A stretch of 64,000 nucleotides of DNA, from positions 1 through 64,000 of the forward strand of contig NZ_JAUAOA010000004.1 in NCBI RefSeq assembly GCF_030542965.1. The letters are read 5' to 3'. Below, one piece after another: positions 36,170 to 56,972 of the stretch. The notes under the pieces were generated by a model. It ran no database searches. It had not been told where the DNA came from and worked only from the letters and a program-made list of their open reading frames with translations. Numbering within the stretch: the first letter of the stretch is position 1; each line of letters starts with the position of its first letter. The position numbers and the translations under genes are program-made. This stretch comes from Azotosporobacter soli (GTDB taxonomy: Bacteria > Bacillota > Negativicutes > SG130).

Positions 36170-37384
36170 GTGCGAATTTCATCCTTAAGCAACAATTGGT
36201 ATCTGTATCAGCAAAACAAGACGCAGGACGCGAGCGACAGCAGCGTGACGCAGCAAACCGATCAGACAAGTACGAGAAAACAGCAGCATGGTCTGAGCAG
36301 CGAAGAAGCGCAAGCCGTATTTAGCGGCATGATGAACCAAGGATTCATCGCGCCGCCAGCATCAAGCAGCAACGATGATACGACGCAAAGCATTATGAGC
36401 TTTTTGGAAAAAGTCAAGAACGGCACCGCGACAAGCGACGACATCAGCAATCTGCAAAGCGTATTAAATGGCAGCAGCACGACAACAACCAGCGATACCA
36501 CATCCGGTACGAGCAGTAGCCTAAGCATAGAAGACTTTTTCAAAAAAGTAAAAGACGGCACGGTGACCGACGAAGACCTTAGTACAATGCAGACACAACT
36601 AAATTCGATGCAAAGTCTTGCCGGTGCGGCGATGACGCCTCCGCCCGGACCGCCGCCTGGGCCGCCGCCCGGCGGAATGAAGGACAGCAGTACGCAAAGC
36701 AGCATCATCAGCTTTCTTGACAAGGTGAAAAACGGCACAGTGACCGCTGATGACCTGACCAGCCTACAGACTGTGCTTAACGCCAGCGACTCCGACAGTG
36801 CAAACGAGGCAAGTTCTTCGACAACGAATAGTGATGTACTGAGTTTGGAAGAGTTCTTAAAGAAGCTAAAAGAAGGCACGGTTACTGACGAGGATCTCAG
36901 CGCGCTGCAAACTATGCTGAACACGCAAAACGGAACAGCAGGAGCGGCCGGCATGCCGCCGCAGGGGCCGCCTCCGGGACCGCCGCCCGGCAACAAGGAC
37001 AGTGATGATACGACCGACAGCATCATCAGCTTCTTAGATAAGGTGAAAAACGGTACGGCGACGGCGGCCGATCTGACCAGTTTGCAAACGGTACTGAATG
37101 CCGGCAGTTCCGAAAGCACGGACTCGACCAGTTCTTCAACGACGAGCACCAGCAGTACGTTGAGTCTGGAAGAATTCTTGAAAAAGCTGAAAGCCGGAAC
37201 GGTGAGCGATGACGACCTCAGTGCGATGCAGACGGCGCTCAATTCGAGCGATTCCTCAAGCACGCAATTGTCCGCCGCGATGACGGAACAATTATTTAAA
37301 ATGGCGATGACGGCCTATGAAAACAATTCGTACACGCCGGACTGGCTCAGCTCTTCCAGTACAAAATCGATTTATTCGGTATAG
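36170..37384 (+). CDS. Repetitive protein with EF-hand-like repeats and proline-rich linkers
   Basis: 404 residues from a GTG with GGAGGG upstream. I do not recognise the family. Three pairs of about 26-residue repeats occur: type A (SFLDKVKNGTVTADDLTSLQ) and type B (EEFLKKLKEGTVTDEDLSAL). They are separated by Ser/Thr-rich linkers, two of which contain PPPGPPPGPPPG runs. Each repeat resembles an EF-hand loop (KxKNGTVTxxDL) in which the first Ca2+-binding acidic residues are replaced by Lys. There is no signal peptide. The start MRISSLS resembles that of the small protein at 47476. It follows a two-component system, though behind a terminator. Confidence 0.75.
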   Translation: MRISSLSNNWYLYQQNKTQDASDSSVTQQTDQTSTRKQQHGLSSEEAQAVFSGMMNQGFIAPPASSSNDDTTQSIMSFLEKVKNGTATSDDISNLQSVLNGSSTTTTSDTTSGTSSSLSIEDFFKKVKDGTVTDEDLSTMQTQLNSMQSLAGAAMTPPPGPPPGPPPGGMKDSSTQSSIISFLDKVKNGTVTADDLTSLQTVLNASDSDSANEASSSTTNSDVLSLEEFLKKLKEGTVTDEDLSALQTMLNTQNGTAGAAGMPPQGPPPGPPPGNKDSDDTTDSIISFLDKVKNGTATAADLTSLQTVLNAGSSESTDSTSSSTTSTSSTLSLEEFLKKLKAGTVSDDDLSAMQTALNSSDSSSTQLSAAMTEQLFKMAMTAYENNSYTPDWLSSSSTKSIYSV

Positions 37385-43220: not shown

Positions 43221-43700
43221 ATGAGAATTACCATCCTTGCCGTCGGCAAGATTAAGGAAAAGTATTTGAGCGCAGGGATCGCCGAATTCGTGAAGCGCTT
43301 GACGCCGTTTTGCAAGCTGAGCATCGTCGAACTCGACGAAGAACGGATGCCGGACAATCCGTCGGCGGCGGAAAAAGTGCAGGCGCTGACGAAAGAAGGC
43401 GAGCGCGTCTTGAAACAGGTCAAGGACGGCACGCGCCTGATCGTGCTCGACGTCGCCGGTAAGCTGATTTCGTCCGAAGAACTGTCGGCCAACTTCGACC
43501 GCTTGGCCGTGAGTGGTCAAAGCGACCTCACCTTCGTGATCGGCGGCGCGTTCGGACTTTCGCCCGATCTCGTCAAAGCCGCCGACGAACGCATTTCATT
43601 TTCGAAGATGACGTTTACGCACCAAATGATCCGGTTACTGCTGGTGGAGCAGATTTATCGGGCGTTTAAGATTAGTCGGGGAGAAAAGTATCACTGGTAA
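43221..43700 (+). CDS. rlmH: 23S rRNA pseudouridine(1915) N3-methyltransferase RlmH
   Basis: 159 residues, exactly the family length, from the ATG at 43221 with AAGGGG upstream. SPOUT-class methyltransferase acting on pseudouridine 1915 of the assembled ribosome. Visible are MRITILAVGKIKEKYL at the start, the SAM-binding FVIGGAFGLSPDL, and the C-terminal MTFTHQMIRLLLVEQIYRAF with KYHW at the end. A diverged copy of its last 110 bases lies at 50289-50397. Confidence 0.97.
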   Translation: MRITILAVGKIKEKYLSAGIAEFVKRLTPFCKLSIVELDEERMPDNPSAAEKVQALTKEGERVLKQVKDGTRLIVLDVAGKLISSEELSANFDRLAVSGQSDLTFVIGGAFGLSPDLVKAADERISFSKMTFTHQMIRLLLVEQIYRAFKISRGEKYHW

Positions 43701-43708
43701 CAAAAAAG

Positions 43709-43743
43709 CGAGCAACATTTCGTGAGATGTTGCTCGTTTTTTT
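43709..43743 (+). terminator. Terminator of rlmH
   Basis: CGAGCAACAT and ATGTTGCTCG around an eight-base loop, followed by seven T. Confidence 0.85.
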
Positions 43744-43759
43744 ATTGCCAGAATGAAAG

Positions 43760-44212
43760 TAGTATTTTGAACATGGTCAGCTTTGGCAAATCAAATTTGA
43801 GTGTGATGTAGCAGTTGCTCAGTTGTGCACTTTTCGCCGTCGCAATTTTTTCGTCGATTGCTGTTGCCATCCATGGCGCGCTCGACACTAGGCGCATCCA
43901 GCGCCGTCGCAAGCGGATGGGGGCGCAGCGGTGGATGGAATGCCCGCAGAAGAAGGCGTCCATGGTCAAACGCTATGCCATCCATGGCGCGTTTGACACT
44001 AGAAACATCCGGTTTCGTCGCCAGCCTGCGGCGTGTGACGTCCTGTCACACGTTCCATCCTCCTTGTCTGTGGCTCCCTGTCTGCTCGTCCTCGCGCCGA
44101 AACGTTTTGAAAAAAACGCGACGCGGGGATGGTGGGGAACGGGGACGTTGTTTTTAAGTCAATTTATTAAACAATGCAAGCCTGACCCTGGGACCATCCA
44201 ATGGTAGACGAT
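43760..44212 (+). repeat. Structured dispersed repeat, copy A
   Basis: Noncoding-looking segment similar to copy B (50455-51000) and, in parts, to C (48714-48790) and D (56660-56890, inverted). It holds two related units starting GCCATCCATGGCGCG. Each continues GACACTA plus a hairpin plus GTCGC: the first hairpin is GGCGC-ATCCA-GCGCC and the second GAAAC-ATCCG-GTTTC, so the stem bases differ but still pair. Further on are GTGTGAC-GTCCT-GTCACAC, CGTTTT-GAA-AAAACG, a GC-rich GGGGATGGTGGGGAACGGGG end, and the tag AATGCAAGCCTGACC (44173-44187). Confidence 0.7.
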
Positions 44213-46255: not shown

Positions 46256-46468
46256 GTGAGTAATTATCAGGGCATTTTAGGTCAGGCTTGCGTTATTGAA
46301 AAAAACGACTTGTTTATAAAAAACACTTCGTACTTCCTCAATAAAAATATGCGATTAAAAAGTTTCGCCGCTTATTACGATACGGAGGGAAATAGCTTCT
46401 TTAGCTACTCAAACGGCGAAAAAAGGTCAATATCTTTGTTTATATACGGTCACCATTGGTCTCTTTAA
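46256..46468 (+). CDS. Short unknown reading frame, possibly a remnant
   Basis: 70 residues from a GTG, AT-rich, with no recognised domain and no clear ribosome binding site. Its last codons lie in the left arm of a 19-base inverted repeat (46453-46501). Near its start is a near-match (46280-46294) in reverse to the AATGCAAGCCTGACC tag of the dispersed repeats. It may be noise or the remains of a mobile element. Confidence 0.2.
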   Translation: MSNYQGILGQACVIEKNDLFIKNTSYFLNKNMRLKSFAAYYDTEGNSFFSYSNGEKRSISLFIYGHHWSL

Positions 46469-48713: not shown

Positions 48714-48790
48714 CCTATGCCATCATCCATAGTGCGTTTGGCTCTAGGAAAATTCGATTTTGGCGTCAGGCGGCATGTGGCGTCTGGAGG
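48714..48790 (+). repeat. Structured dispersed repeat, partial copy C
   Basis: Diverged version of one hairpin unit of copy A. CTATGCCATCATCCATAGTG and TTTGGCTCTAG are followed by a stem AAAAT-TCG-ATTTT and GGCGTC. The stem has a third, different base composition but still pairs. Confidence 0.5.
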
Positions 48791-50087: not shown

Positions 50088-50288
50088 TTCAGCACCTCAA
50101 TCGTAAATACATATTTGGCAGCGTGAATTTCGACTGTATAGCATGAGGCGGATGCAGCTTCTTTTTTGAAAGATAACTGCCTGATGATCGCGTTTATAGG
50201 ATACCGTCTGCATTAGCACAATGGTTATAGTTTTCGGATGAGAACCAAATTCTCCTTCTTTATCTGGTGGAGGCGCGTTCTCTCTTTC

Positions 50289-50397
50289 GCTGACGAACGC
50301 ATTTCGTTCTTGAAAAGGACGTTTGCACACTAAATGATTCGACTGTTGCTTGTTGAGCAGATTTATCGAGCGTTTAAAGAAGTATTATTGGTAACAG
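50289..50397 (+). pseudogene. Diverged 3' fragment of rlmH
   Basis: Matches the last 110 or so bases of rlmH (43575-43700), including the stretch GAGCAGATTTATCGxGCGTTTAA. A deletion of about 12 bases lies near the end, and GGTAAC and a terminator follow. It begins abruptly in the middle of the gene and has no start. Confidence 0.8.
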
Positions 50398-50400
50398 AAA

Positions 50401-50445
50401 AAAGCGGTCAACATCCTTGTAACAGAGGAATGTTGATCGCTTTTT
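50401..50445 (+). terminator. Terminator behind the rlmH fragment
   Basis: AAAGCGGTCAACATCC pairs with GAATGTTGATCGCTTT, then TTATT. Confidence 0.75.
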
Positions 50446-50454
50446 ATTCATTAT

Positions 50455-51032
50455 TATGGAAGGAAGTTACAATGTGAAAAGAGAAAGTGTTTATAAGATG
50501 TGACAAGTTTGATGACTTTGGCAAACCAAACTTGAGAGTGATGTGATGATTAATTCGCTTTGTCCCTTTCGCCGTCGCAATTTCTTCAAAACTATCGGCG
50601 CTCGTCGATCGCTATTGCCATCCATGGCGCGCTCGACACTAGGCGCATCCAGCGCTGTCGCGGGCGGACATGGGCGCAGTAGCCTGCGGTGATGGAATGC
50701 CCGCATCAGAAGGCGTCCATGGTCAAACGCTATGCCATCCATGGCGCGTTTGACACTAGAAACATCCGGTTTCGTCGCCAGCCTGCGGCGTGACGTCCTG
50801 ACGTTCCATCCCCCTTGCCTGCCGCTTCCTGTCCGCTCGTCCTCGCGCCTACTTGTTTTGAAAAAACGCGGCGGCGGGGATGGTGGGGAACGGGAATGTT
50901 GGGATGAGGTCGGTGATTTTTTGTTGTGGTGATTGAGGGAAATAAGTCAATTTATTAAATAATGCAAGCCTGACCCCGAGATTCCATTAAATAATGCAAG
51001 CCTGACCCCGAGATTCCTGACCCCGAGATTCC
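50455..51032 (+). repeat. Structured dispersed repeat, copy B with tandem tags
   Basis: Long relative of copy A with the same two hairpin units (near 50617 and 50733), the same order and orientation, and a duplicated rlmH end in front. It ends in 32-base direct repeats (50954-50985 and 50986-51017) and a third partial unit (51018-51032), each with CCTGACCCCGAGATTCC. No gene can be supported from 50088 to 51243. Confidence 0.7.
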
Positions 51033-56659: not shown

Positions 56660-56890
56660 TGCTTTCCGTCCTCCGTTCCCCCAAGCCCCGCGTCAGCGGT
56701 TTTTCCAGAACGTTTAGGACGAGGACAGTCAGGCAGGAAGTACAGGACAAGTCTGGCCGCGTAGGCAGCATGGACGCTGCCTACGAGCGAGCGTCAGGGA
56801 TGACGCGTTCGCGAGGGATGCGGCCAGGCGCAGGCGTGTACGACTATGCCTGACCCGCAGGCCGTCGTTCAGGTAAAACCACTGACGCGG
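56660..56890 (-). repeat. Structured dispersed repeat, inverted copy D
   Basis: The outer arms CCGCGTCAGCGGTTTTTCC (56688-56706) and GGTAAAACCACTGACGCGG (56872-56890) pair with two mismatches. Inside is a three-way fold: CTGGCCGC with GCGGCCAG, GTAGGCAGC-ATGGAC-GCTGCCTAC, and GCGTC-AGGGAT-GACGC. The segment near 56665-56735 is the reverse complement of the 3' part of copies A and B (CGTTCC, CCCCGCGTC, AACGTTTAGGACGAGGAC). It stands right behind the defence cassette in opposite orientation to copy B. Confidence 0.7.
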
Positions 56891-56972
56891 AAAGAGCTAA
56901 AGGAAGCAAATAATCACAGCATGATCAAGTTGAATTTGCAAAAGCAATGAATGACGTTCTGAATTGCAAACG

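Follow-up and report, generated by a model that had tools for sequence, protein, structure and literature searches.

A two-hairpin palindromic repeat of Azotosporobacter soli and other bacteria with the features of a small DNA insertion element

In a 64,000-nt stretch of the Azotosporobacter soli genome (contig NZ_JAUAOA010000004.1; hereafter the window), short hairpin units downstream of rlmH, first noted at 43866-44040, differ from one another by base changes that leave their stems paired. An earlier sequence-only reading took these changes as a sign of selection for structure, either in RNA or in single-stranded DNA recognised by a transposase. The locus raises the question of which molecule the hairpins serve, and of how the units came to lie where they do.

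Architecture of the unit and its setting in the window

The full unit is 56–57 nt long in the A. soli window (52–60 nt across the family, with hairpins of about 9 and 5 bp) and consists of a first stem (GTCNNNNGC/GCNNNNGAC, capped by GCC-RTCCNT-GGC), an ACTA joint, a second hairpin (GNNNC-RTCCN-GNNNC) and a 3' GTCG. The upstream stem, GTC...GAC around GCCATCCATGGC, is longer than the hairpin originally described and covaries as well. The following features were assigned:

43221-43700, plus strand: rlmH (SPOUT methyltransferase; Pfam PF02590, E 5e-56), upstream of copy A
43839-44122, plus strand: larger palindromic host element, copy A, with outer arms GTCGCAATTTTTTC (43839-43852) and GAAAAAAACGCGAC (44109-44122), holding units 1 and 2
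43853-43909, plus strand: unit 1, copy A, 57 nt; stem 1 GTCGATTGC/GCGCTCGAC around GCCATCCATGGC, ACTA, 3' GTCG
43891-43905, plus strand: hairpin 2 of unit 1, copy A, GGCGC-ATCCA-GCGCC; DNA fold of the unit as drawn, z -2.5
43965-44020, plus strand: unit 2, copy A, 56 nt; stem 1 GTCAAACGC/GCGTTTGAC around GCCATCCATGGC, ACTA, 3' GTCG
44002-44016, plus strand: hairpin 2 of unit 2, copy A, GAAAC-ATCCG-GTTTC; DNA fold of the unit, z -5.8
48715-48769, plus strand: decayed relative (copy C); AAAAT/ATTTT pairs, outer G-C pair and stem 1 lost
50288-50377, plus strand: rlmH 3'-end pseudogene fragment, 81% identity, duplicated along with copy B
50570-50876, plus strand: larger palindromic host element, copy B, with outer arms CGCCGTCGCAATTTCTTCAAAAC (50570-50592) and GTTTTGAAAAAACGCGGCGGCG (50855-50876)
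50604-50660, plus strand: unit 1, copy B; GGCGC/GCGCT, final stem-2 pair G-T
50722-50777, plus strand: unit 2, copy B, 100% identical to unit 2, copy A

Both stem pairs that the sequence-only reading had named for copy A, GGCGC/GCGCC with loop ATCCA and GAAAC/GTTTC with loop ATCCG, were found in the two units of that copy, and the flanks GACACTA and GTCGC are constant, as stated. The same stems had been claimed for copy B, which holds for unit 2 but not for unit 1, whose last pair is G-T rather than G-C. For copy C, the AAAAT/ATTTT pairing is real, but stem 1 and the outer G-C pair have been lost, and the fold is no better than that of shuffled sequences (z -0.8). Copy C retains 74.5% identity (blastn E 7.5e-5) and scores E 0.2 with R1, a covariance model built from units and slightly weakened by the absence of one of 18 stem pairs; each of the four units of copies A and B scores about 1e-14. 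A degenerate pattern matched five times in the window, where 0.56 matches (sd 0.78) would be expected, and a chance origin of the window units is excluded.

A host element of 220-330 nt with a long outer stem carries units 1 and 2 as passengers. The 3' end of rlmH, the spacer and the entire repeat region recur 6.7 kb away as a block duplication; because copies A and B thus belong to one duplicated block, they are not independent evidence, and the comparison of unit 1 with unit 2 is the sole independent one within the region first described. Relatives of the host element occur elsewhere in A. soli on contigs C8, C11, C14, C18, C21 and C24, among them one copy on C8 (C8a) that lacks any unit and copies on C21 that are likewise unit-free. 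Unit 2 of copy A lies directly 3' of GTCCATG in a hairpin of the host, for which C8a provides a related unit-free site.

Several other features of the neighbourhood were recorded. A further, unit-free member of the host family lies on the minus strand at window positions 56700-56900 and resembles the C14 and C1 copies. The duplicates (43580-44190 and 50288-51020) bracket about 6.1 kb containing a DUF2703 gene, an ECF sigma factor and a LysR regulator, an arrangement in which the duplicated rlmH 3' end may recall island integration at that site. Just downstream of both host elements lies a short repeat, AAGTCAATTTATTAAAYAATGCAAGCCTGACCC (window 44156-44190, 46280-46315, 50940-50975 and 50986-51017), which on contig C2 (L017, about 1500) directly adjoins the end of a helix-turn-helix ORF of 150 aa and may be the end of a transposase element. 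An ORF at window 36620-37145 contains tandem 318-bp internal repeats with proline-rich PPPGPPPG and EEFLKKLK segments. On contig C8, TGTCATTGCGAGCGCAGCGCGGCAATCTTC (L018, about 1450-1480) resembles a classical CGTC-type REP, a class that A. soli may also carry.

Distribution of the family and covariation of its stems

Genome counts were obtained by searches with the R1 model, those of a first round being lower bounds. The A. soli genome contains eight units, and R1 matched 28 of 300 genomes sampled from the class (Negativicutes) and 10 of 398 from the phylum. Deeper R1 searches yielded 27 units in genome G027, 40 in G037 and at least 47 in Sporomusa silvacetica (G110), and copy numbers of 6-20 were seen in four Desulfobacterota genomes, with eight copies in a Wallbacteria genome. 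Carriers found by a pattern scan include S. silvacetica, Selenomonadales MAGs, Desulfocapsaceae, Desulfobulbaceae, Desulfoarculaceae, Wallbacteria and a few others, a list that is incomplete because the pattern demanded C at position four of stem 2 and so left out the A. soli sub-type and several others. The units are interspersed, at up to tens per genome, in Negativicutes, other Bacillota, Desulfobacterota and Wallbacteria, and head-to-tail tandem units occur. Searches of viral contigs, phages and plasmids gave no match to the unit or to the host element.

The claim that stem changes preserve pairing holds far outside the window. Paired changes affect 7 of 18 pairs already among the seven distinct A. 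soli units, and stem 1 appears as GTCAAACGC/GCGTTTGAC, GTCGGACGC/GCGTCCGAC or GTCGGCAGC/TCTGCCGAC under the common cap GCC-RTCCNT-GGC. Further copies with broken pairs had been named beforehand as the observation that would count against the claim; among 94 distinct units, 96.8% of stem cells still pair, and 264 cells have changed on both sides, against 84.5 (sd 10.8) in shuffled controls and at most 39 with slid partners. Relatedness among units inflates such double-change counts, but the slid controls retain that relatedness and stay near zero. The double changes fall at 13 of 17 pairs, and covariation was seen again in a second sampling of 50 distinct units drawn partly from the same genomes. 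While the stems change by matched Watson-Crick pairs, the loops, the joint and the 3' end stay fixed (of 130 parsed units, 103 have ACTA and 116 have GTCG).

Non-canonical pairs were counted to distinguish RNA from DNA. A first parsing of the stems gave 15 G-U and 21 A-C; a larger one gave 14 G-U and 29 A-C in about 1690 stem cells (G-U 0.8%), in which wobble is undercounted because this parsing selects mostly Watson-Crick stems. The unfiltered per-pair table agrees that G-U is scarce, except at the loop-adjacent purine of RTCC. By comparison, 19 tRNAs encoded at these loci have 13 G-U among the 133 cells of their acceptor stems (9.8%) and no A-C, so that G-U is about 12-fold rarer in the units (Fisher p 8e-9). 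Orientation relative to flanking genes, with ORFs roughly called, was the same in 40 cases and opposite in 45. Of the two features expected of a structured RNA, covariation is therefore present and tolerance of G-U is not, and the scarcity of G-U together with random orientation favours pairing at the DNA level over a conserved RNA.

Insertion sites and units inside protein genes

Empty sites were sought by joining the two 60-nt flanks of a unit and querying the product against all loci. In A. soli, C8a reads GCGTCGTCCATG^ACGC where C8b holds a unit, with 23 of 24 junction positions matching. The S. silvacetica empty site TCCTTTAGGACG^CCGGCAGAAGCC (GGACG^CCGGC, L125) matches the filled flanks at 24 of 24 junction positions and at 96-100% overall. 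The g40 genomes carry the unit at TACGCG^TCGC within a larger CATCTG-type repeat, of which unit-free copies also exist, and at two loci (L055 and L058) a unit splits a partial 5S sequence beside a tandem 5S copy that is unit-free. Filled and empty sites differ by the exact module, and no target duplication is visible; several of the empty sites belong to paralogous repeats and not to the orthologous locus, and some could therefore be deletions. Units were not seen to move within any one strain.

Target preference is weak: a G or C precedes the unit in 39 of 44 distinct contexts, and the following bases tend towards Y-M-G. The landing sites include larger palindromic repeats and tandem 5S rRNA remnants, to which Desulfobacterota add the reading frames of ordinary genes; the units of Negativicutes are mostly intergenic or within larger repeats. 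One larger repeat, CCATCTGCGGCGTTGCTCC...GTACGCG...GCATCTGG (L014, L015, L028, L040, L074 and many other loci), is common to several Negativicutes families and is a frequent target. The inverted units at L074 were considered as possible transposon ends and rejected, since ordinary genes lie between them. In other Bacillota, unit-like hairpins were also noted in an apparent rRNA-operon spacer after a tRNA (L249, about 1437-1556) and directly before a 16S gene (L246, about 1501-1557).

The units of Desulfobulbales come in steps of 54 nt and lie inside long frames, and 14 of 19 units in the Desulfobacterota sample fall in frames of at least 200 codons. A sense copy encodes, for example, VGRSSAIPGAPDTRPSMAV. 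In endonuclease IV, the unit stretch has no counterpart in E. coli Nfo (a gap in the phmmer alignment); a DAK2/DegV protein contains two units in one genome and a single unit in a second, and the frame is open in both. PurF carries a unit in frame at its N-terminus, a radical SAM/methyltransferase/DUF5714 protein and others also hold one in frame, and a phosphopantetheinyl transferase gene contains one in antisense.

Explanations, relatives and meaning

The RNA half of the original proposal is disfavoured, as G-U is not enriched over A-C and is far rarer than in tRNA stems, and orientation is random. We regard it as very unlikely that the hairpins are selected as a structured non-coding RNA, one form of which would be a CsrA-binding sponge transcribed from the reverse strand. 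The reverse-strand loops all read (A)NGGAY with a closing C-G, a CANGGAYG-like arrangement resembling the CsrA/RsmE site; 15 of the 17 unit-bearing genomes have CsrA, RsmW is the best sub-threshold bacterial Rfam match (reverse strand, E 1), and the slight excess of A-C over G-T (29 against 14, p 0.03) runs in the direction expected of a reverse-strand RNA. However, mismatches of the C-T or A-A kind occur as often as A-C, units lie within protein genes, no CsrA match was found in G053 (100% complete, 15 units) or G302, and the commonest hairpin-2 pentaloop on the reverse strand is CGGAT, without the A. No Rfam family was matched at the gathering score, and nothing significant appeared at E up to 1. 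Integron attC sites and hammerhead-type ribozymes were also considered, and no attC core or catalytic motifs were seen.

Two further accounts were weighed. Template switching during replication copies one arm of a hairpin or inverted repeat into the other (PMC8794818, PMC8604942) and can create covariation in palindromes with no function needed, so that covariation alone is no proof of selection. Nearly all variation is strictly Watson-Crick with very few wobble intermediates, as copying predicts, and arm homogenisation may explain part of the covariation and of the near-perfect matching. As a full explanation it is nevertheless unlikely: the RTCC loop, ACTA and GTCG are conserved across phyla while the stems diverge, which implies recognition, and the structure recurs at independent insertion sites, which implies that intact copies move or spread. 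The mechanism may instead act together with insertion. It is more improbable still that the units are passive parts of larger palindromic repeats and that only the latter move or duplicate. Most units in the Sporomusa, g40 and g11 genomes do share one host repeat, and both window copies lie inside a larger element and a duplicated block; yet unrelated hosts in different genera carry the unit, as do 5S remnants and protein genes; its boundaries are precise, and unit-free sites exist. That account is contradicted as a complete one and is valid for recent amplification within a genus.

Precise insertion, spread across phyla and insertion into coding frames favour the DNA option, and the family is probably a very small non-autonomous DNA insertion element, REP/RPE-like, whose hairpins act as single-stranded DNA. 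A putative trans-acting strand-transfer enzyme, of the HUH/Y1 type or similar, would recognise the hairpins in single-stranded DNA and join the GTC... and ...GTCG ends into a target; pairing would be kept since only folding copies would move, and template-switch correction of the palindromes may add to the matching of the arms. A unit inside a larger repeat, as in the window, would then multiply along with its host. The transposase proposed at the outset remains hypothetical, as no autonomous partner or linked enzyme was found, nor, in the loci read, any transposase-carrying element with unit ends. Y1 transposases (PF01797) occur in 157 of 300 genomes of the class, and Y1 was set aside as a co-occurring partner because its distribution is patchy and does not follow that of the unit. 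The near-complete genome G037, with its 40 units, gave no PF01797 match, and current mobility by the Y1 family is unsupported there.

Among known systems, MITEs derived from IS200/IS605 and mobilised by Y1/HUH enzymes have subterminal hairpins and directional ends and insert exactly, without target duplication. The unit likewise inserts without target duplication, as filled and empty sites indicate, and has fixed directional ends; it differs in having no fixed tetranucleotide target, besides the enzyme findings above. Rickettsia palindromic elements (RPEs) and other coding palindromic repeats are non-autonomous, lie in frame in unrelated genes and in spacers, and are mobilised in a way that is not understood (PMC10969869, PMC3733652). 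The unit is similarly palindromic, intergenic as well as in frame in unrelated genes (endonuclease IV, PurF, DAK2/DegV, radical SAM), but it is set apart by the description of RPEs, which are about 150 bp (as quoted in review) and come from Rickettsia, whereas the unit has 52-60 nt, two RTCC-loop hairpins, ACTA and GTCG, and crosses phyla.

The GTAG- and CGTC-tagged REP superfamilies are small high-copy hairpins with varied stems, inter- and intragenic in many phyla, the CGTC class being without a dedicated transposase (PMC3733652). The unit shares the small size, high copy number, varied stems, intergenic and intragenic positions and presence in several phyla, but consists of two different hairpins in the same orientation, linked by a fixed joint. 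GTAG-tagged REPs are single hairpins with an unpaired GTAG, whereas the unit begins with GTC... (in the stem) and ends with ...GTCG. CGTC-tagged REPs have an unpaired CGTC at one end, a stem of 8-9 bp starting with AT pairs, a loop of 4-5 and a CCA tail (PMC3733652); the unit has two hairpins, no AT start, no CCA tail and an unpaired 3' GTCG. Expansion segments of 5S rRNA and interrupted 5S pseudogenes involve hairpin insertions into 5S genes and remnants, accompanied by intact 5S genes in the same genome, and the accessible part of the survey describing them, which concerns other orders, makes no mention of genomic repeats or transposition (PMC7812874); the 5S insert here differs in being a unit also found elsewhere in the genome. 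Neither 'Sporomusa' nor 'Desulf-' appears in the text of PMC3733652, and the open-access literature on repeats in Sporomusa, Negativicutes and Desulfobacterota yielded no description of the family. As the unit works like RPEs and intragenic REPs, carries neither REP tag and was not found described, we treat it as a new variant among known palindromic repeats. A bolder reading is doubtful: a still-active, hitherto undescribed class of transposable module, minimal in size at about 55 nt and working as single-stranded DNA, would use its own code (RTCC loops, ACTA, GTCG) and its own putative enzyme, spread between phyla and write new protein segments of 18-19 residues.

The family also offers a caution, in that its covariation is overwhelming and nearly wobble-free, and a functional RNA cannot be read from strong covariation alone. 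The best-known mobile palindromic repeats in coding sequences are those of Rickettsia. Given the crisp consensus, the filled and empty sites, the many copies in cultured Sporomusa silvacetica and the in-frame insertions in housekeeping genes, the mobility of this family, its choice of target and its effect on proteins are testable.
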